The notes beneath the pieces were generated by a model. That model was not told the DNA's origin and did no database searches. It worked only from the letters and a program-made list of their open reading frames with translations. The position numbers and the translations under genes are program-made. From Paramacrobiotus metropolitanus (taxonomy: Eukaryota; Tardigrada; Eutardigrada; Parachela; Macrobiotidae), in assembly GCF_019649055.1 (NCBI RefSeq), contig NW_026570281.1, positions 1 through 64,000 on the forward strand: a DNA stretch of 64,000 nt, given 5' to 3'. Positions within the stretch are counted from its first letter, which is position 1. Every line of letters starts with the position of its first letter. Positions 1,017-53,944 of this stretch are shown piece by piece.

Positions 1017-1995
1017 TTATTTGCCACGCAAGGACGCAAACACCCGCTTTAGGTAATCCTCAACAACAATGCGCAGATTCTTGAACGTCAGCATGATGAC
1101 GACCGGATCGACAATGGTTTGCAAAGAAAACGTAATCCCGCCTACGTGCAGCCACCTTCTCAAAAACGTGACATTATGTGGTTGCTCGTTCGTTAACATC
1201 CTGTAGATATTATAGGACGTGCCGGGAATCCAGCAGACTGCCGTGCTAAGCGTCAGCCCAGCCAGTAACAATAGCGCCCGCTTTGGATCCTTCTTAACGC
1301 CCTCAACCGCAGGAATCTCCGCATGAATGATTGCACACCGATACCACTGTGTGGATGCCGCGTTTAAAGCGCCGTCCCCGCCAGCAGATCAAATAGATAT
1401 TGGCGAGTATCATACCGGTTATCGGAGCCGCCACCAGAACAACCGCCCGCGCGGTGATCCACGAATGCAAGGCCTTCATATTGATGATACAGAGATCCAC
1501 ACGTGATAGTGGGATTTTATATATCATGGCGTCCAGTAATAAACCTGGAAGGCTGAAAACATGGACATAGACCCACATTCCAATACATAGGCTGATTGCC
1601 ACTCGGGGATTGTGCTTACGTTGGTAGTGCAACGGGCGCAATATAGCCCAGAGACGATTTACTGTCACAAGGAGGTGTGCATGTACGATAATCGGTGGGA
1701 TACCGAAGTTAGCGTAAGTGAACAGGATGCAGATAGGCTCTCCCAGTTTCCAATGATAAGCGGTCAACGAGTTCAGAATGGCAATTGGACCGCTGATGAA
1801 CACGTAGAACAGGGTGGCAATTGTTAAGTTGATGAGGTAGACACTAAAAGCGGTGTGGAGTTTACGGGAGGTCAGCAACATAATTAGTAGGAACACGTTG
1901 AAAATGGTCTCCAAGATGAATTCACTGAGAGCGATATATGACTGCAATTCCCAGGCAGTGGTAGAATTGGCATGGGTTCCATTTGATAAAAACAT
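1017..1995 (-). CDS. Rhodopsin-like (class A) G protein-coupled receptor, divergent
   Basis: Proposed structure is complement(join(1017..1292,1345..1995)), 308 residues, with a 52-base phase-0 GT..AG intron at 1293-1344. Seven hydrophobic segments are visible. The N-terminus has NGT and NST glycosylation sites. A Cys before TM3 (GEPIC) and one in loop 2 (DLCIIN) could form the usual disulfide. The DRY motif at the end of TM3 is replaced by NRL (NRLWAILRPLHY). TM6 keeps CWIPG, and TM7 has DPVVIMLTF in place of NPxxY. Family knowledge says such a protein is a plasma-membrane receptor; the ligand is unknown. The ATG at 1995 is the first in the open frame. Without the intron the frame stops in loop 3, and the antisense-free paralogue at 13.7 kb supports the join. 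Start choice is moderately uncertain because an upstream 5' exon is possible. Confidence 0.8.
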
Positions 1996-3971
1996 CTCTA
2001 TAATAACAAACACGTAAATTGATTCCTAATAAAGCCTTTTCTGCGTGCCTCACATGATCTCAAGCTTAATTATGGAATACTGCCATATAGCCAAACGATA
2101 TCAATGCAGTGCAGGCGTTCGTGCATACCATCAATCATAAATCAGCAGCATAATTAAATTACGCAATTTAGAATCAAATGGCCATTGTTACAACTGATAA
2201 ATCGGCGGTTCTCATTGTTTTCTCACAATACGATCCCAAAGGAAGAGATCATGCGCGTGTAAATGCGCGCAGTGTTTACATCAACTGCAAGACAAAACCT
2301 CATATAGATATACATGTATATGCTTCATAAATGGACTGCTCGGCGGACCGCTCCAATTATTATCCGCATATCCCGTCGTCTACGATTTCTTTTGCCCAAG
2401 TAATAGCAGTAATTATGTAGCGAGATACAGTACGCGCTCGGATTTAGTCCAAAGAAGAACGGCCGCGTGACAGCGAGTAGGCCTTGCCGAAAGCATGCAG
2501 CAACTCCCCCAACGCTTGCGCAGGTTAGTAATGATTTTTGCTGGGCGGCATTGATTTTGCGCCATCGCAAGTGTCGTGCTACTTATTGTTCTAGGTACAG
2601 CAACTGTCATGTTCACGTTCACCGATCCCTACCAAGCAACCCACACGTTCAAGGAACGAAATTTAAATTTTATTGTGTCTGCTGCCACATTGCGTGTTAC
2701 GGTGTTCTCATGATAAATTGATAATAGCGTCTCTACACCGTGAACTTCCGCATTTGCACAAAGGTACTATACACTGAGCAGCAAAGTACAAATATGTGAG
2801 ACCAGAACGGCTTGAGAAAGACTGCAGAAATTGTGATATCCTACTGGCTGAATTTAGGCACGCAATAGTTAGCGCGGTGTTGTTTTCTGATCTTTGTCTT
2901 TTCTAAACTGCCACGAAGCAACGAAAATATGAATAAAGGAGAACGGTACTAGCGAAGAGGACTGCTAGATTCTTTGCCCTGTCACATTCTTTAATCTAAC
3001 AAAACTAGGCCGATGTTTCCGTCAGCTTTAATTTTTTGTGGTGAGCAGAGAGGCATTGATTATACCCACTACCCTAGAACGATGCCTCGTACAGTCATAT
3101 CAAATGAGAAAGTCCGGCATGAATTTCTTGTGCTGCATGTACGAGATACATTACCCGAACCACTGGGACGGTTTGAAGTACATTGCTACTTTCATAACGA
3201 CCGATGGTGCAAAAGTCGCCTCGCAATGCGAGAACTGCGTACAGATTTGTACAGACGTGCGGTAGGAAGTACAGGTACCTAAAGCTATAAATCGTGGATG
3301 CAGTATTTTGTCCATCGCTTGGAGTAATCTGTGAATAAGATTAAAACCAAAATTATAATTAATTTTAAACCGAATTAAGTAAGGGTCATAGTATGCCAGA
3401 AGTAGCAATGCTATCTCGATAAGATCAGACCCTGCCGCATGCCGCAAAGAATTATTTTTCGGCAGCAGTTCCATGAACGGTTTTAGGTCGGTTTTTCATT
3501 TCTCTCAGACCCGGTAATGTTCTCGATTAGACTACCATTATTTTGCCTTTGACAGTTTTTACTATGTGCGGTAGTTGAAAATATCACAATCATGCAGTTG
3601 TAGCAACACTAGGAAAGTACCGGACCTGTGGTAAACTGAAAGATATGCTGCTAAGCGCTGCCACAATACAGAATACACTCCTTAGGAATCCCATGGCAAC
3701 CGGCAACAGTGCTTCCGGTGAAATCCAAGCAAAAGTCGCCAAATATTTTCCGGCTTCGGGTTATGTAAAATTATACAATAAAAAGAGCTGAATACGTTTG
3801 CCTTCCAAATCCACCAAGCGTATCGTAACTGCATTCCTTCATCAGTGCCGAATCAAACACGCCCGCTCTCCTCTCAACATCCCTTCACTGAGCAACAAAC
3901 CTTCGCATACCTCAGGAATTATTTCGACATTTTGACAGTTAGTTATATTGTTCTGCCTTGATTGGCCGTAC
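1996..3971. other. Intergenic, no supported gene
   Basis: Several overlapping 60-110-codon frames lie on both strands at 2325-2721 and 3013-3474. None has a recognisable domain, and they overlap each other in different frames. The frame at 3038-3265 is Cys-containing and could be an isolated exon, but I see no partner exons. Confidence 0.4.
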
Positions 3972-12299: not shown

Positions 12300-13740
12300 A
12301 GTACAATTTAGCCCTTTAAAGGCCGCACTGCCCTTTAAAGGTCTGTAGACACTGCTGTCAGGGCGGGCTTATGATTCAGCCCTTCTGTCATTGGTTGGTT
12401 TTGGGTTTTTTCCTGTCTGGGCATTTTCATGCGTTTTGATGGCTCTGTAAGGCAGCTGCGCTGCCTACAGAGACCAGTTGGTTTTGGCTTGCGCGCAAGC
12501 GCGGTGTGTGTTCAGATTTCGGCATTAAAGCCTACATCCGGGTTCGTTTTGTTCCTCCGTCGATGGACGATGCGCGCTTAGCCAGCGCCATCTGATACTG
12601 CACTATTCGTTTTCAGATATACATGGATTGCTAAAGGCCACATCAAGAGGCCGACTATTGACCCCCATGATCTTACCATTATAAAGAAACAGTAACTCGT
12701 ATCGGATTTTTATTAGCGCAAGCCAGTCACACTGCAGATTTTGTTAACAACAAAAAAAATGATTTATTATAACAGAAAAATTTCTCTCAAATTATCCGTT
12801 AAATCAATGGTTCCAAGGACAGACGCCGCGTTGCCCCGCTGGATTTCGATCGATAGACGCTGGCGTAAGAATTCGTGTGATCGAGGTTCACCCGTGTGCT
12901 GCTGCAATCGCTTTCCGATTTCCTTCACTAAAGCGGATGCCGATTTTCCCCAGGGCCCGAATGTTTCAAAAGCTAACGCCGCAAAAATGTATCTGCCGAC
13001 GAGGTACGCATATTGTCTGGTCTTCCTGTCTTCGGCCTGGGCAGCGGCGGATCCCGCCGCTGTTGAATTTGACTTGATATGCGACAAAGCGACGGTGTCG
13101 ACGCAGGTGACGTCCCAAGCTAAGCACATGCCACGCTTCCAGGCAAACGTCGTGCATCCGTCCGGACGTCGCTCGGACGTGTGGGATGTGCCGCGGGGCT
13201 CAAGCTTCGCCGGGATACCCGCCGATACTAATGATCGGCACACAATACTGTTCAGCCCGCCATGGCGAGGGTGTCTACCGACGGAGAAGGAGCATGACAA
13301 TCCGTGGTGGCCATACACGTCAACTGGTTTGCGGCATTTTGCACAAGAATGTGCTTCACAGATTACTGCGCCCAGCCTAAGCCCGACTGAAATCTTCAAA
13401 GTGTCGTCATCGAGTAGGTTTCCGATATGTGCCGAAGGCAGCGCATTTAACCAGATGCCGGCTTCCGGTTTGGACTGGGCAAGGAGACGGGCTCTGTTAG
13501 TTTCGTCGTCACGGAAAACATCCAGCAGTGTTGACAGTGACGCATTACACAGCGGTAAGTCCCACGATCGTTGACAGTTTTGGAAGTTGAGTTCGGGAAG
13601 ATCTGTCTGACCGCTCTTCACTTTCCACTTTTCCCGTGCATCGGTGGAGTCCACAGCAGCGTGATTGGGAAGAAGCAGTGACATTAGTGCAGATGCGGAG
13701 TGAATCGAAGCCAGGAATTGGATTGTGTATCGGATTGTGC
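12300..13740 (-). mobile_element. 5'-truncated retroelement (3' part plus tail region)
   Basis: Contains the 3' coding end of a reverse-transcriptase-type polyprotein (annotated separately), read on the minus strand, and its downstream untranslated region. That region has an AATAAA-type signal (minus strand, 12709-12714). The segment 12705-12780 resembles plus-strand sequence at about 56985-57040, suggesting another copy. The 12300-12540 part holds short repeats of CCCTTTAAAGG and a hairpin around 12450; whether it belongs to the element is unclear. The 5' truncation point is near 13735, next to the receptor pseudogene. Confidence 0.55.
12767..13738 (-). pseudogene. C-terminal fragment of a retroelement polyprotein
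   Basis: An open minus-strand frame of over 300 codons runs uninterrupted to the stop at 12767. It matches my memory of the C-terminal region of reverse-transcriptase polyproteins found in many invertebrates. That region starts with a GIWLNALPS...LDD segment, then a Cys/His cluster (C..H.CAKC...GHHGLSC). After it come RRPDG and WDVTCVDT, which look like PD-(D/E)XK nuclease motifs, and a RQRLSIEIQRGNAASV tail. The reverse transcriptase itself is absent, so the copy is 5'-truncated, as is usual for target-primed insertion. The frame is intact, suggesting a fairly young insertion. The residues upstream of about 13738 are antisense of the receptor pseudogene and are not element sequence. The exact retroelement clade is not determined. 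Confidence 0.65.
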
Positions 13741-14735
13741 ATGATGCGCCCTTTGAATGAAACATTGCAAACAAACGATGGCCTGACTTATACCACCGAG
13801 TCAGTACTCGGCATTCCTAAATTTATCGTTGAATTCAACCTTTACGTGGGGCTGCTAATAATCCTCTTATTGGCCCGAAAACTACCTACCACCTTCACTG
13901 TCTACCTGATCAACCTCACAGCCGTGACGCTTCTCTTCATCACGATAAGCGGATCAATTAGCATCGCCGATCAATTAGATGGCGTGCGCTGGATTATGAG
14001 CGATTTGGGGTGCAGCCTGTTCAATTATGCTAAATTCGCCTTACCTCCGGTGATGATCCAGGCGCATCTTCTGGTATCCATTAATCGATTGTGGGCCATC
14101 CTCAGACAAATTCATTACCGCAAACATCACAGCCAGAAAGTGGCCATTATTCTGTGTGTCAATATGTGGATGTACGTACATATTATCATGCTGCCGGAAT
14201 TATTATTGGACGCTGTTTCCCATAAAATGTCCCCCATCTTTGGGGAAATCTGCATAATGAACGTGAAACCTTTAAATTCGTGGTTTGCTGTGCGCGCCGT
14301 TGTTCTGGTCGGAAGTCCCATGTTGTTTATATGGCTGCGATAAATATTTATTAAATTTGTTGGCGCGGGAGGAGGTTTAGGCGCGGAACTGCTGGTGTTG
14401 CATCGAGCGGTTATCAGCCAGCCAAAAACAGCGTGAGCGGATCGTGAGTGTTAGGAAGGAGCCGAAGCATGCACTGTTCTTACTCGCCGGTTTGACCGTT
14501 AGCACCGTGGTCTGCTGGATTCCAGGGACAGCCGCGGGATTGTATTTGACCTTCAACAGTACCGCTCTTCGGGATGCGGGATTTCTAAAGGCGTGGTTGA
14601 ATGTTGGCGATAATCATGTTCTCCCTGCAAACCATCGTGGATCCAGTAGTCATTTTGTTGACCTTCAGAGAACTGCGTTATGTTGTGAAGCGATGCTGTT
14701 CTCTGAAATATATCCTAGTCCCATACCCTAGATGA
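13741..14735 (+). pseudogene. Broken paralogue of the rhodopsin-like receptor
   Basis: Closely similar to the receptor at 1017-1995 along its length: matching TM1-TM5, NRLWAILR at the TM3 end, CWIPG in TM6 and VDPVVILLTF in TM7. At least three lesions break it. A frameshift near 14320 lies inside TM5. A stop (TAA where the paralogue has a Leu codon) follows at about 14348. A one-base insertion near 14607 shifts TM7 into another frame. The loop-3 region also shows no clean intron. It starts with ATG at 13741, directly beside the truncated retroelement, so the insertion may have removed its upstream exon or promoter. A functional spliced version cannot be built from this sequence; assembly error at three sites is possible but less likely. 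Confidence 0.8.
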
Positions 14736-48300: not shown

Positions 48301-48915
48301 TATGGCGCGTGTCATACTTATTAAAATTAAAGGTCAACGATCTGCAATTCATCATGAACCTCGTTCATCGATGATACCTACTGTATCGATCACAATCAAA
48401 TCCACGTGTCGGGTAAAAGCAACGATCGGGGTAGAGGGTTTTTTCGATACGCCGACCTGCTCCCATCACGGAGACCGGTTTGCGGCGTTCTCCACCATGG
48501 CTGGCGCGGTGCTATATGTACACCGAGAACCAGTTGAGTGGGTGTCCGAAGAAACAGCCGATCCTGGAAACGAGTGGGGAAGTGAATGCTACGACCAAGT
48601 ATCATGCCGATCAAACGGCAAACGGCGGGCTGGTGCCGGGCATTGTCATTTAAATGGGCAAATGGTGGGTGGAGCGGACGATTTACCAGGGCCCAGTCAC
48701 CACCTGCCCCCTCCAAAAAATTTTGTAATTTGCATGAACAGAGTAGGTATTGGGAATTCTTCAAAAAGTATTTTCAACGGCAATGGTCCAGTGGGCGTGG
48801 CCAAAACCAAATTAACTGCCGTATGTATTGTTAGTTCACTGGCAATACATACATATAGCATTTATATCTGCTTACAGTACCTCTAAATTCTTCTCGGTGC
48901 TGCACTACGCGGGCG
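48301..48915. other. Repeat-derived flank of the retroelement
   Basis: A 194-codon frame starts at 48302 but shows no domain and overlaps a similar-length antisense frame. Sequence at about 48777-48832 (including GGCAATGGTCCAGTGGGCGT) recurs inverted at about 51631-51690, so this is part of a dispersed or inverted repeat. Confidence 0.45.
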
Positions 48916-49075
48916 ATGGAATGGATTCCGACGGACAGAGGAATCCGGGTATTACGACACACGACACGCCCCCTTTAATAGTGGTATCTCTGTTAGAGTT
49001 GAATGCATTTGTGAACTGGTATAAATTGGAGAATGTACAGTGCTAACTTGTGTCACTTGCCAGAGTAAAATTTTT
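48916..49075 (+). repeat. Split direct repeat A1
   Basis: 160 bp beginning ATGGAATGGATTCCGACGG; 158 of 160 positions match A2 by eye (differences near GTGGTATCTC and CACTTGCCAG). Confidence 0.9.
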
Positions 49076-49144
49076 GAAATTAAAATTTTAAGAAATTCTC
49101 GATCTGTGTTTTTTACGTTACCGTTTTCGCATTTATTTATCATC

Positions 49145-50262
49145 ATGTCTGTTACACTCGATGAAGCTCGCACGTTAAATCTGAAGAAGTTGGGCCGCCT
49201 GAATCTCACAGAGGTCAAACGGCTCATCGTCGAAGTTGAAGGCGAGCAAGCGTTCGATGAAACGAAACCTGCTCTTGTCCAGCGGCTTTATGACCTGTTT
49301 CATCCGGATGAATCTCTGGATTTGGAAACTGATGCTGCAGCAGGTAAAGGTGACTCCTGATCTGACCTAGCTACAGCCATCGGAATTTCCGCGACGTCTG
49401 TCTCCCAGCTGTACGACAACGGATACAACTCCATCGACGATGTCATCTTATTGGCAAAGGTCAAGAATTTCCCCGACAACTTGGAATTTATCACAAACGC
49501 CCGCGATCGCAACAAGCTTGAGGTGTTTGTTATGCCCCACGTTCCCAAGTCTCCTCTCGTGGCATCCGCAAGCGACGATGCTTCCCTCCGTCGGAGCCGT
49601 TCAATAACACGTACAAGCTACCACCACCAGGCAGCTTCGGACGACGAGAGTTCCGGGAGTCCAGTTAGCGCTTACCGCAAATCCAACAACTGCTCCCGTA
49701 CTTCCCCTCAAGCCCAAACTCTATCCAGACCGCATACGCTTCCATTCGTGAAAGCAACCCACAAGGCCGCTAAAGATGTTAAGCCGCATGAAATTTCACG
49801 CGACGAGTTGTTGCCGGCAACATCATGGCTGCGCTGGATTTGGCAAGAAAGACCAACGCTTTACCTACGCTGATCGAATTCCTGGAAAACCAAGTCTTTT
49901 TGGCTCGCAAACGATGCATGTATGATGACGAAGCCATTGTGCAATTTGACTGCGAGTTTCGCGAAGCCGCCCAGATTGAGGAGTTTGACCTTTCTGATAT
50001 TACGCATCGCGACCCCACGGCTGACGCATATTTTTCGGCGGATTCCCGTCGAACGTCGGATTTTCAAGTTTGTAACCCAAAGGTCACTTTTGGACAGGCG
50101 AAGCGCACAGCTACCGTGGAACCCCGTTTTCCGAATTACTGCTGTTTCAACTACAACGAAGGCAGACCCTGCCGGGATATCCCTTGCCGTTTTCCACACA
50201 TTTGCGGTTTCTGCCGGAAGGACCATCGCGCCACGGCCTGCACCGAGCAGTCGGCAAAATGA
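49145..50262 (+). pseudogene. Gag-like ORF of the retroelement, decayed
   Basis: Begins ATG at 49145 (MSVTLDEARTLNLKKLGRL). An in-frame TGA at 49358-49360 interrupts it, after which the same frame stays open to 49873. A frameshift near 49800-49825 moves the reading to the frame that ends at 50262. The C-terminal part has a Cys/His-rich segment (CCFNYNEGRPCRDIPC, then FPHICGFCRKDHRATAC). It resembles the zinc-binding end of gag-type proteins in DIRS/Ngaro elements. The N-terminal part looks helical and charged, with a Ser/Arg-rich middle. With one stop and one frameshift it is not translatable as one protein here. Confidence 0.68.
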
Positions 50263-50950
50263 CCTCCATTCGGTATGACCTGTCGAATTCCGGGTTGGTT
50301 ACCTTTGCCTGACATTTTACCGAGACGATTGTTTTCTTTAACTTTTGACCCGGATTCGCCTGCTTCGTGCTGTTACCTTTTCATGCATTATTATTCCCCC
50401 ATATCCTGTGTCCGCTTCGCATTGTCCCTGCCTGCTTTTATACTACATTGCACATTTTTCAGCCTCGTTGCGTATATTCGTTACCTTCTTAAATACTTGC
50501 TAGCGTATGCTTTTGCGCTTATAGCCTTCCGTACATTGTATGGAATTTAAAATCTGCATGGATTTAGGTCAAACTGTGGAATTCCCAGTCCGACTACAAA
50601 CCTCCATTTGCCTTGCCATATTCCGTGGGATGCGACAGGACTTCCTTGCACCCTGCTTTATGCATGCGGTCTGGCGACTGCATGCATCCTTAAATGCCGT
50701 ATTGCGCTGGCGTGATTTCCGCCAGAGCAGTGCTACTACTTTCGTGGATCTTCTAATTTGGTATTACTTTCGCGAATGCCCAACAATGCGCGGAATCCCG
50801 CGCCTTTGGTATCGTGATAAGCTGTTTTCCTTGAATTCAAGGAATCGGCCTGCTTTATCGTTGCACATTCATCACACTTTTCGTTGCCATCATTACGCGG
50901 TATTGGATCGCCTCCAGTCATCTTTGTGTTTTTGCCTTGGGTTTTTGGGT
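50263..50950 (+). other. Non-coding internal part of the retroelement
   Basis: Pyrimidine-rich sequence between the gag-like ORF and repeat B1. A 152-codon frame (50540-50998) is Cys/Leu/Phe-rich and has no motif; I consider it untranslated. Confidence 0.5.
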
Positions 50951-51039
50951 TTGGGGCCGTTTCCGGCCATGTTCGGCATATCTGCCCAAAGGAAGTAAAT
51001 TCCGAGCCCACCTTTCTCGCGTGACGTGTAGGAGTAATG
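50951..51039 (+). repeat. Split direct repeat B1
   Basis: 89 bp starting TTGGGGCCGTTTCCGGCC; one difference from B2. Similarity to B2 may extend slightly upstream. Confidence 0.88.
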
Positions 51040-51196
51040 GAATGGATTCCGACGGACAGAGGAATCCGGGTATTACGACACACGACACGCCCCCTTTAAT
51101 AGTGGTCTCTCTGTTAGAGTTGAATGCATTTGTGAACTGGTATAAATTGGAGAATGTACAGTGCTAACTTGTGTCACTTTCCAGAGTAAAATTTTT
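51037..51196 (+). repeat. Split direct repeat A2
   Basis: 160 bp, the second copy of A1, placed between B1 and B2. Confidence 0.9.
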
Positions 51197-51233
51197 CTTG
51201 TTTTTTTTTTGTGCTTTTGCTCTGTTTGATGGC

Positions 51234-51322
51234 TTGGGGCCGTTTCCGGCCATGTTCGGCATATCTGCCCAAAGGAAGTAAATTCCGAGCCCACCTTTCT
51301 CGCGTGACGTGTAGCAGTAATG
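51234..51322 (+). repeat. Split direct repeat B2
   Basis: 89 bp, the second copy of B1, forming the right end of the element. Confidence 0.88.
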
Positions 51323-51630
51323 CTAGCAAGTACAAAGAGTTGACAAAACTTTGACATTGTCAAGCCAGTCAGTAAAAAGTAAAATTTAGCGAACAAAAAG
51401 TCAAAGCACAGGTTTTCACCAGTACGATGAACACCTTTTAATGAGAATCCTTACATACTTACATTGGCCATGTGCAATCAAATCAAATCGACTACCCGGT
51501 TAGATTTTTGCAAATTGGATGTTGTAAAAACCAAAATTAAGAATTAGTAGCCAAGAAGCACGTCTGCAAATGCAGTAATAACAGATAACACTGATCGGAG
51601 TGCCGAATGTGTTGCCAATACAATGTACAT

Positions 51631-51690
51631 TGATAATACATACGGCCCTTAAATTTGTTTTTGGCCACGCCCACTGGACCATTGCCGACA
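51631..51690 (-). repeat. Inverted copy of a dispersed repeat
   Basis: The reverse complement contains GGCAATGGTCCAGTGGGCGT followed by a CCAAAA-type stretch and CCGTATGTATT, matching plus-strand 48777-48832. The pair flanks the retroelement. Confidence 0.7.
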
Positions 51691-53944
51691 AAAGTGTTTT
51701 TTTAAGTATCCCCCATACATGTTCTGTCTTCGAACAGAATATGAAATTTTTATGAGAGGGGAGGCGGTGGGCCCCTTGTAAGTACTTTATGGGCCATAAA
51801 GAACGGGTAGTACATACGGGTAGTACATGCGTAACCCTTTTTGTGCTTAACATAAGCAGCTTCGTAAATTCTACTTAACCTTGAGAATTCGGCATGTGAT
51901 CGATTTTAAAGCGCAGTCGACCATAACTCAGCTTTTGCTGTCTACGCAGTAACTGTGCGATGCAACATAGTTAAAAGCCTCCGTCGAAGAATGCAGGCCA
52001 TACTTAACTTCGTCCTCTTCAGCGCTTTTTTCCGTCCAAGTAAGAGCATGGAAATCCGTTGACGTTTAGTCTGGCCACGCAAAACATCCTAAAACCGGCT
52101 TGGCAGCAGCAATCACATCGCGCCCTGCAACCGGGACCGAACCAACTGCCATCTACGTTCATTGAAATGCAAAGCCGACACCAACAAGCGCCAAGCGATG
52201 ACCTTAAATCATCGACTTTCTCGGGCTCGGCGGAATACGTACATGCAGAACTGCTTCGGAACTGCCCATACTAAAGGAATATCCGAATACTTCAAACGTT
52301 TTGGTTCTTGGTGGGTAGAACACAGGTCCTTACGGTTCTATGCAAGAAATTGTTTGGTGCCGTTTCGGCTTCGTCAAAAAATGTGTACGTAAGTTTTACC
52401 TGCCGCGGTGGGCAGAAAGATGACCGAACGTATGGTTTTCAACTCCGAGCGCGGCATTATATAGCTCAATAGACCATGTAGTCCAGCCGTGGAAATACAA
52501 CGTCATAAAACAGGACTTCGTAACTCTACATGAAGAGGTTATCAGGAAAATGGCAAGTTATGTAGCCCTTTTGTGCGCGAAATTCCACACGACCGATATA
52601 CGTGGTCTACGGAAATATACATCAGCAGTATAGAAGTATAGAAGATGGAGTCGTAATACAGTGACGTCTTCAGGTAAAGTACTGGTGGTCTGCTACTGCA
52701 CAACTGTTCTCGCACATTTCCTATACGAGATACAATCATGCAATCATTGTTATCGCGAGTTATCAATTAGTGCAGTAATATACGCGTTGACCACTCCATG
52801 AAAACTAAATTAAATACGCTTTGGACGGATGTCCCACCGTCAGACCTTGGATTTAGGACCTTTCCAAATAAGAACGTGCCGAGCGCGGATGCGCGAGGCA
52901 TACCTTGTCACGTACAATACTTACAATAATTATCAATATACTCGTACTATATCCGTGGCCCATGCGAGTGATGCGACCACTACTCGTACGTATGAAAAAA
53001 AGTGGTTAGAACCAGTGGTTTATTGCATCGTCCATTCAATCTTTTTGTCGTATGGTCTGAGCCAGCATTTTAGTTGAATCTAGCACGTCTTTGACTTTTC
53101 TGATATGCATGCAACCATAAACTAACCTTGCCACTAACCATAAGCGAGGTTGCAGTTTAAGAAGCAGTTTATCGGACCTGACTACGTGCTACTTGCTACC
53201 ATTTTCGCAGGCGTGGTCTCCCGTAGCCGTTTTGGTAGCAAGTAGTTCCACAAAATGAGTTTATGTTGGCTGACTACTGCTACGTAGCTGGCTATGTAGC
53301 ACCGACTATGTAGCGCAAATGTCTGCATAAACAGACGATGCTATTGGTAGTCGTGATTAGATTGCTAGCTCGTAAGAACAATGGTTAAGCCATGTAGTAA
53401 CCTCTTGAGGTTGCTAATCCATATACCAACTTCGCAGATAATGCGGAAAAATTCGATACAGTACACAATAACCATTAAAAAGTTTGAAACCAAGTTCGAA
53501 TTAACAAACACGATCGTAATGAAACTTTTTAAATTTAAAATTCAATTTTTTTAACTTTTAAATTAAATTTGAAAGTTAAACCGTTTTTTTTTTAAATTCA
53601 AGTTCAAATAGGAACTTAAATTTTTTTTAAAATTTCAACTTACAACTTAACTCGAAATTTCAAAATTAAAATTTTCAAAGATTTCAGTTTAGATTTTGAA
53701 GATGAAATCTTGAAACAAATCAAATAAATAAAAAATGTTGCACATGTACAATAAATTAAAAAGTTAAAAGCGGATTAAAATAATTTCCAGAAAATAGCAA
53801 TATTACGAGTACCTGTCAGTGGGCTGTCACTTCTAGGGACGCGCTTACCCTTTAAGCGACTCCAATGGGATAATTACTTACGTACGATGATGACTCTTCA
53901 AAGCAAGGTAGCACAAATACTGTTAACCCCATTTCAACAGTTAC
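51691..53944. other. Gene-free stretch
   Basis: Small frames at 52059-52392, 52542-52766 and 52829-53077 have no domain. The segment 53510-53720 is a low-complexity block of A/T runs. Confidence 0.45.
53510..53720. repeat. AT-rich low-complexity block
   Basis: Runs of TTTAAA, AATTTAAAA and similar strings over about 200 bases. Confidence 0.8.

Follow-up and report, generated by a model that had tools for sequence, protein, structure and literature searches.

A probable non-autonomous, gag-only Ngaro-like retrotransposon with split direct repeats and its relatives in the genome of Paramacrobiotus metropolitanus

The repeat-bounded element that we analysed in the window (contig C61:1-64000, the whole stretch of 64,000 nucleotides) is very probably a non-autonomous tyrosine-recombinase (YR) retrotransposon of the split-direct-repeat, Ngaro-like type, which has kept gag, lacks the reverse transcriptase (RT), RNase H and recombinase regions, and would receive these enzymes in trans. 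Searches of 170 Mb of the genome place it in a gag-only family that seems to borrow the enzymes for its copying and insertion from bigger relatives. We infer mobilisation in trans for the gag-only elements, as a preliminary description of this DNA had proposed for the window copy.

Table 1. Features of the window element and of the transposon that carries it
Feature	Position	Strand	Remarks
Host TIR DNA transposon, left terminal inverted repeat	48738-48813	.	82% complementary to 51652-51727; relatives elsewhere in the genome
Left boundary triplet GAT, target-derived	48915-48917	+	identical in 10/11 empty host-transposon copies
A1 split direct repeat	48916-49075	+	2/160 bases differ from A2; at least 40 genome matches
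TATAAAT promoter-like motif in A1	49020-49026	+	second copy in A2, 51141-51147; putative function
gag frame, broken	49145-50262	+	stop at 49358-49360, one frameshift; ~370 codons
gag C-terminal part, open	49825-50262	+	Cys/His zinc-finger-like motifs, read by eye
3' non-coding region, in place of RT and recombinase	50263-50950	+	similarity comparison
Conserved ~107-nt 3' element	50557-50663	+	two predicted hairpins, 50567-50595 and 50625-50656
B1 split direct repeat	50951-51038	+	last triplet is the junction AAT (51036-51038)
A2 split direct repeat	51037-51196	+	repeat comparison, genome matches
B2 split direct repeat	51234-51321	+	last triplet is the right boundary AAT (51319-51321)
AGTAAA poly(A)-like motif in B2	51277-51282	+	putative function
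Host TIR DNA transposon, right terminal inverted repeat	51652-51727	.	complementary to left arm

The element has the order A1-gag-B1-A2-B2 with two pairs of direct repeats (Table 1), and the arrangement A1...B1-A2-B2 of the preliminary description was recovered with the repeats at the places given there. The 160-nt A copies are spaced by 2121 nt, the B copies are 95% identical over 99 nt with one difference in an 86-nt core, and B1 and A2 overlap by 3 nt, the junction triplet. The TATAAAT motif is present in nine of ten aligned non-autonomous A repeats, that of L012 reading TATGAAT. With three differences in about 246 repeat bases, it is fair to regard the window copy as recent, as had been suggested, with the reservation that gene conversion can blur such ages. 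About 690 bases separate the end of the gag frame from B1; this region shows no significant similarity to either enzyme (RT or recombinase), and a tblastn comparison of the whole 64-kb window with the recombinase and RT proteins of relatives gave no match at E 1e-3, which bears out the earlier statement that neither enzyme is left in the element. Elsewhere in the window, frames of Rhodopsin-like 7TM receptors (PF00001) lie on opposite strands, at 1303-2025 (-) and 13591-14343 (+).

The window gag gave no Pfam match, and its C-terminal part is 57% identical over 141 residues to the gag of an enzyme-bearing relative on contig C63 (L031). The anatomy is thus that of the gag-only derivative proposed earlier, although the gag of the window copy itself is broken. 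Its nature as a short non-autonomous form was likewise supported, but it does not stand alone: it belongs to a diverged group of gag-only elements, from which a gag-less branch appears to have arisen. Searching the genome with the C-terminal piece of gag gave 111 matches, and 11 gag loci match it at 71% or more. Searches with the repeats gave 40 scored matches each, the best 40 of 66 candidates for A and the best 40 of 75 for B; among the A matches listed, 25 lie in pairs (one triple) spaced by 1.8-2.1 kb. The first fetch of 20 A, B or gag loci, to which L062 was added later, allowed us to distinguish eight complete gag-only elements (window, L011, L012, L024, L025, L026, L027, and L029), four partial ones (L022, L023, L028, and L062) and nine complete gag-less elements (L013-L021). 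Three of the partial elements (L022, L028, and L062) have no 3' end within the fetched stretches; the assembly may be incomplete, and copies may be missing. Within the stretches fetched, the interiors of the 12 gag-only loci showed neither RT nor recombinase. RT matches at four of these loci proved to be of another kind: those of the L032 RT (residues 16-124) in L024, L026, and L028 are, by coordinates and frames, gag in another frame, and the match of the L033 RT at L012 lies outside that element.

The A and B repeats recur at other insertions, and among 36 flanks of 18 elements (eight gag-only, eight gag-less, and the enzyme-bearing L031 and L036; L015 and the partial elements were left out) no flank-flank match was found at E 1e-4. 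Sixteen of the 17 complete non-autonomous loci were included in this comparison, and none of them share flanks. The window element itself is inserted within a DNA transposon with terminal inverted repeats (TIRs), and all 11 fetched relatives of this transposon (L040-L050, of which L048 and L049 are near-identical) are uninterrupted at the insertion point, with the target triplet GAT in ten copies and AAT in L046. Comparison with these empty sites assigns the G at 51322 to the target DNA, so that the element is bounded by GAT on the left and ends with AAT on the right. An empty site of L012, located about 1 kb away, has matching flanks of 70 and 74 bases (98.6% and 95.9%) and the target triplet AAC, while the left and right triplets of L012 are AAC and AAT, respectively. 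As the boundary triplets differ (GAT/AAT and AAC/AAT), there is no target duplication at either of these sites, the two empty sites that a search suggested in the preliminary description has yielded; such a triplet mismatch without target duplication is the footprint of tyrosine-recombinase integration. In the host transposon, which spans 48738-51727, an internal segment beside the insertion is inverted relative to the fetched relatives.

The same pattern extends to 19 elements with an AAT junction, whose left triplets are AAT (7), AAC (5), GAT (4), ATT (1), ACT (1), and TAT (1). The right triplet is AAT in 18 of them after register correction of two, L015 and L024, which the script read as CAA and AGT and which we read by eye as AAT (16/19 by script alone); that of L020 is ATT, and L056, with no AAT at its junction, was left out of the count. 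Left and right triplets are unequal in 12/19 elements after the correction (by script alone unequal in 14/19 and equal in 5/19), and the seven elements with AAT on both sides cannot on their own separate recombination from a 3-nt duplication. A target duplication would give equal triplets; the pattern observed fits recombination between the AAT junction of a circle and a look-alike target triplet. The two empty sites give the base-by-base origin of the triplets, from target or element, and the integration step is directly testable.

Elements with both RT and recombinase, the partners that the preliminary description advised looking for, do exist in this genome, and those of the closest family are all defective. 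The recombinase family PF00589 has 93 genome matches at E up to 1, of which 20 are over the cut-off. The nearest enzyme-bearing relatives, which have end repeats in common with the window element, are L031 (C63), L032 (C79), and L063 (C109). L031 comprises A1, gag, an RT/RNase H region that lacks about 90 residues, a recombinase of 377 aa (PF00589), B1, A2, and B2; in L032 the RT is whole (PF00078), but the gag frame is broken and the recombinase interrupted; L063 is rearranged, and a further copy on C379 is a fragment only. The DNA of L063 is 96-99% like that of L031, and the RT and recombinase parts of L032 are 88-99%, mostly 98-99%, like those of L031 at the protein level. The B repeat of L031 is 78.6% identical to that of the window element over 98 nt, and the A repeats of the two families are 75% identical over the first 48 nt, to which the resemblance is confined. 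No intact helper of this family was found in the genome searched. In L033 and L056, which are more distant, the frames of gag, RT, and recombinase are open and the repeat order is like that of the window element, their RT being identified by PF00078 and their recombinase frame by similarity to that of L031; L033-L036 gave no A or B match comparable to that of L031.

Several other candidates for a full-length partner were rejected. The locus on C104, with an A match of 77% and a recombinase about 4 kb off, is a solo A-B beside an unrelated element, L056, which has its own repeats; on C35 (L022), A1 and the greater part of gag are present, but the 8 kb fetched contain no B; and the B matches on C19, C46, and C248 proved to be isolated or incomplete repeats. 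Three enzyme-bearing YR elements have gags that start with a SAP domain passing the Pfam cut-off, namely L034 (860-2230), L035 (1081-2319), and L056 (4065-5321); the domain is below the cut-off in L033 and was not reported in the gags of L031, L027, and L036.

In the gag tree, the 11 gag-only gags occupy one side of a branch, opposite L031 and five more distant gags. The support of this branch is 89/92 (not starred), it recurs in 92% of 200 bootstrap trees, and L031 adjoins the gag-only gags with support of 100/100. The tree, with its root drawn at midpoint, leaves out L032, L062, and L063, carries a long-branch warning for L034, L035, and L056, and does not settle the order of the window, L011, L012, and L022 gags among themselves. 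In six between-subfamily pairs of better-kept copies (window, L025, L027, and L022), our own Nei-Gojobori script gave dN/dS of 0.15-0.20 (dN 0.16-0.21, dS 0.79-1.10; 95% intervals of dN/dS within 0.11-0.29), and the range becomes 0.15-0.32 in pairs that include the decaying L012 and L024. Most within-subfamily ratios are higher, although they vary: 0.66-0.81 for L024, a broken copy, against its kin, 0.74 for L011-L012, 0.67 for L027-L029, 0.37 and 0.45 for the window copy against L011 and L012, and 0.28-0.66 among L023, L025, L026, and L028, except for one pair of 1.88 with almost no changes. Judged from these sequence comparisons, gag is probably under purifying selection between subfamilies (dS being about 1), which may be read as a gag lineage kept functional by selection with individual copies drifting after insertion. 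Provided that the enzymes were lost before the subfamilies split, the low dN/dS speaks for Gag being required in cis. Such an early loss is supported by the 3' region that the window, L025, and L027 groups have in common (L022 has no 3' end).

This region contains, about 275-360 nt from the gag stop in the three groups, a conserved element which was present in 9/12 gag-only and 9/9 gag-less loci looked at. The alignment of eight gag-only and eight gag-less copies comprised 16 sequences, 13 of them distinct (L013, recognised by a DNA match instead, was left out). Its RNAalifold structure consists of hairpins with two-sided changes at 4/21 pairs. In the extended structure, 90.9% of cells pair, and the covariation of 0.206, against 0.124 in shuffles, was reached by 0/500 of these and was at most 0.092 when the structure was slid. 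The numbers of paired cells and of cells with a two-sided change were also reached by 0/500 shuffles; the four pairs with a two-sided change were reached by 108/500 and the further pair types by 352/500. Covariation thus appears to lend moderate support to the predicted structure, which was derived from the very 16 sequences used for scoring. The covariance model, run with default filters, matches the window, L023, L059 (a remnant with a B repeat) and, weakly, L060, and four further matches at E 0.5-3.6 were taken as chance; it matched none of eight enzyme-bearing loci (L031-L036, L056, and L063, with L032 and L034 incomplete) and none of the partial gag-only L022, L028, and L062. An Rfam search gave one match, below its gathering score, ARAGORN (bacterial code) reported no tRNA gene, and a typed pattern of the 3' core, which was too strict, matched 0/63 loci. 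We infer that the 3' element is a predicted cis-acting RNA signal, perhaps for packaging.

When the gag-less interior was used as the query, 21 candidates yielded 23 matches. Twelve of these matches extend over more than 650 bases with at least 72% identity, and a 13th (C334) extends over 1.1 kb at 71%; the family thus has at least 12 copies. It retains the 3' element and the element ends. A stretch of its first frame resembles, as read by eye, the gag start (SKKKLDRMNRQHVKR vs. LKKLGRLNLQEVKR), and L020 has a 48-nt DNA match to the gag start. The gag-less family appears to be a derivative of the gag-only elements that would have lost gag.

Two of the alternative explanations concern the nature of the insertion itself. 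It is highly improbable that the element is the remnant of an LTR retrotransposon whose repeats are unusual and which a DDE integrase inserted: a Gag-like protein with a zinc-finger-like motif (by eye) and direct repeats would be expected of it, but the split A/B order, the PF00589 recombinase of the sister L031, and the lack of an identical target duplication at the two known empty alleles speak against it, and the LTR-type duplication named in the preliminary description as evidence to the contrary is contradicted by the GAT/AAT and AAC/AAT ends. A local tandem duplication without mobility, for which the closeness of both repeat pairs might speak, has a practically negligible likelihood, as A units occur on many other contigs (at least 40 matches), with unrelated flanks where tested, and the empty sites are clean; the ordinary tandem duplication also considered in that description is contradicted in the same way by the A and B repeats common to other insertions.

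Tentatively, we consider it quite possible that a long-lived parasitic lineage of YR retrotransposons dispensed with RT and recombinase on a single occasion, its own Gag staying under selection, that it acquired a two-hairpin packaging RNA of its own, and that it later gave rise to a gag-less second-order parasite in which the RNA element and the ends persist; if this is true, Gag is required in cis, whereas RT and recombinase can be shared. Rather unlikely, in our judgement, is the recurrent production of gag-only copies by deletion from an unseen enzyme-bearing family, to whose masters the constraint on gag would then belong. The mostly higher within-subfamily dN/dS agrees with such deletion products, with the caveat that some pairs have values of 0.28-0.48 (and one, with almost no changes, that of 1.88), as do the possible incompleteness of the assembly and the three loci without a 3' end in the fetched stretches. 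Against them, none of the 12 gag loci closest to that of the window (11 at 71% or more, plus L062) shows internal RT or recombinase in the fetched stretches, the gag-only gags keep to one side of their branch in most bootstrap trees, and the window, L025, and L027 groups have in common one 3' region, unrelated to the enzymes, which points to a single enzyme loss.

Under the reading of the window element as a non-autonomous YR retrotransposon, its RNA would start in A1, at the TATA motif, and end in B2, at the poly(A)-like motif, and would be bound by Gag, whether its own product or that of a sibling element, the conserved 3' element perhaps helping. An enzyme-bearing relative, the L031/C63 type being the most likely one, would supply RT and recombinase in trans. 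In the published model for split-direct-repeat elements, the B1-A2 junction rebuilds both ends in a circle, and it would do so here in circular DNA, whose AAT junction the recombinase would join to a look-alike target triplet, so that the target triplet would remain on the left and AAT would stand on the right.

Insertion without target duplication is typical of Ngaro-like YR retrotransposons, and the window element and L012 follow this pattern. The window element also resembles them in the order A1...B1-A2-B2, its internal repeats following the coding part, and its sister elements in the order gag, RT, recombinase; no methyltransferase family was reported by a Pfam scan of the RT frames of L032, L033, and L056 and the first RT frame of L036. 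It differs in its own 3' region and in the absence of RT/RNase H and tyrosine recombinase, the criterion of Ngaro-like elements, the parts of which L031 and L032 have between them. Because of this absence it is only a non-autonomous relative of Ngaro, and it is best called, by structure, non-autonomous Ngaro-like. TR-GAG LTR elements insert by an integrase-type mechanism. The literature compared consisted of excerpts of PMC4157794, PMC9210276, PMC6681497, and PMC6022998. PAT-like elements, which in the excerpt have split direct repeats like the window element and are part of the DIRS group encoding a methyltransferase domain (PMC4157794), differ from the sister and distant loci scanned, where no methyltransferase (Pfam) was reported, and from the window element, which has no such region. 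The TR-GAG elements of plants are described in the excerpt as non-autonomous, the interior between their terminal repeats being limited to a gag domain or to gag plus protease (PMC6022998); the window element shares their gag-only content, but its repeats are split and not LTRs and its insertion is of the recombinase type, which places it outside that group. The gag-only elements are the split-direct-repeat counterpart of these LTR elements. SIRE, a truncated non-autonomous form of VIPER in Trypanosoma cruzi, comprises the first 185 bp, about 30 bp of internal sequence, and 220 bp of the 3' end, according to the excerpt (PMC6681497); it is likewise a YR-retrotransposon derivative that keeps both ends, but, in contrast to the window element, has no room for gag, so that our gag-less family is its closer analogue. 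No gag-only split-direct-repeat family was seen in the open-licence literature searched, from which the exact phrases for non-autonomous DIRS, Ngaro, YR, and tyrosine-recombinase retrotransposons were absent. As had been remarked, descriptions of non-autonomous YR retrotransposons seem to be few, SIRE being one known example. With selection on gag that can be measured, a gag-only group could help to tell what must be provided in cis (Gag, RNA element, and ends) from what can be borrowed (RT and recombinase).

Solo A-B remnants (L030, L037, L038, L052, L053, L057, L058, and one in L056) are what recombination between repeats would leave. In L062 (547-2110), a gag-only 5' part is followed by an inverted gag-less interior, which makes it a chimeric remnant. 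The gag-less L018 (662-3084) has an additional B-A unit (A1..B1-A2-B-A-B2), which may reflect either the collapse of a tandem or another integration event at the junction. The RT-recombinase unit of L034 (2235-8001) is repeated head to tail at a spacing of 2.45 kb, in at least 2.3 copies that are 99% alike. The window element and L011 are 95-100% alike outside the gag block at about 49316-49916 and only 88-92% within it, where L011 is 94-99% like L012; such a mosaic could have arisen by template switching or gene conversion.
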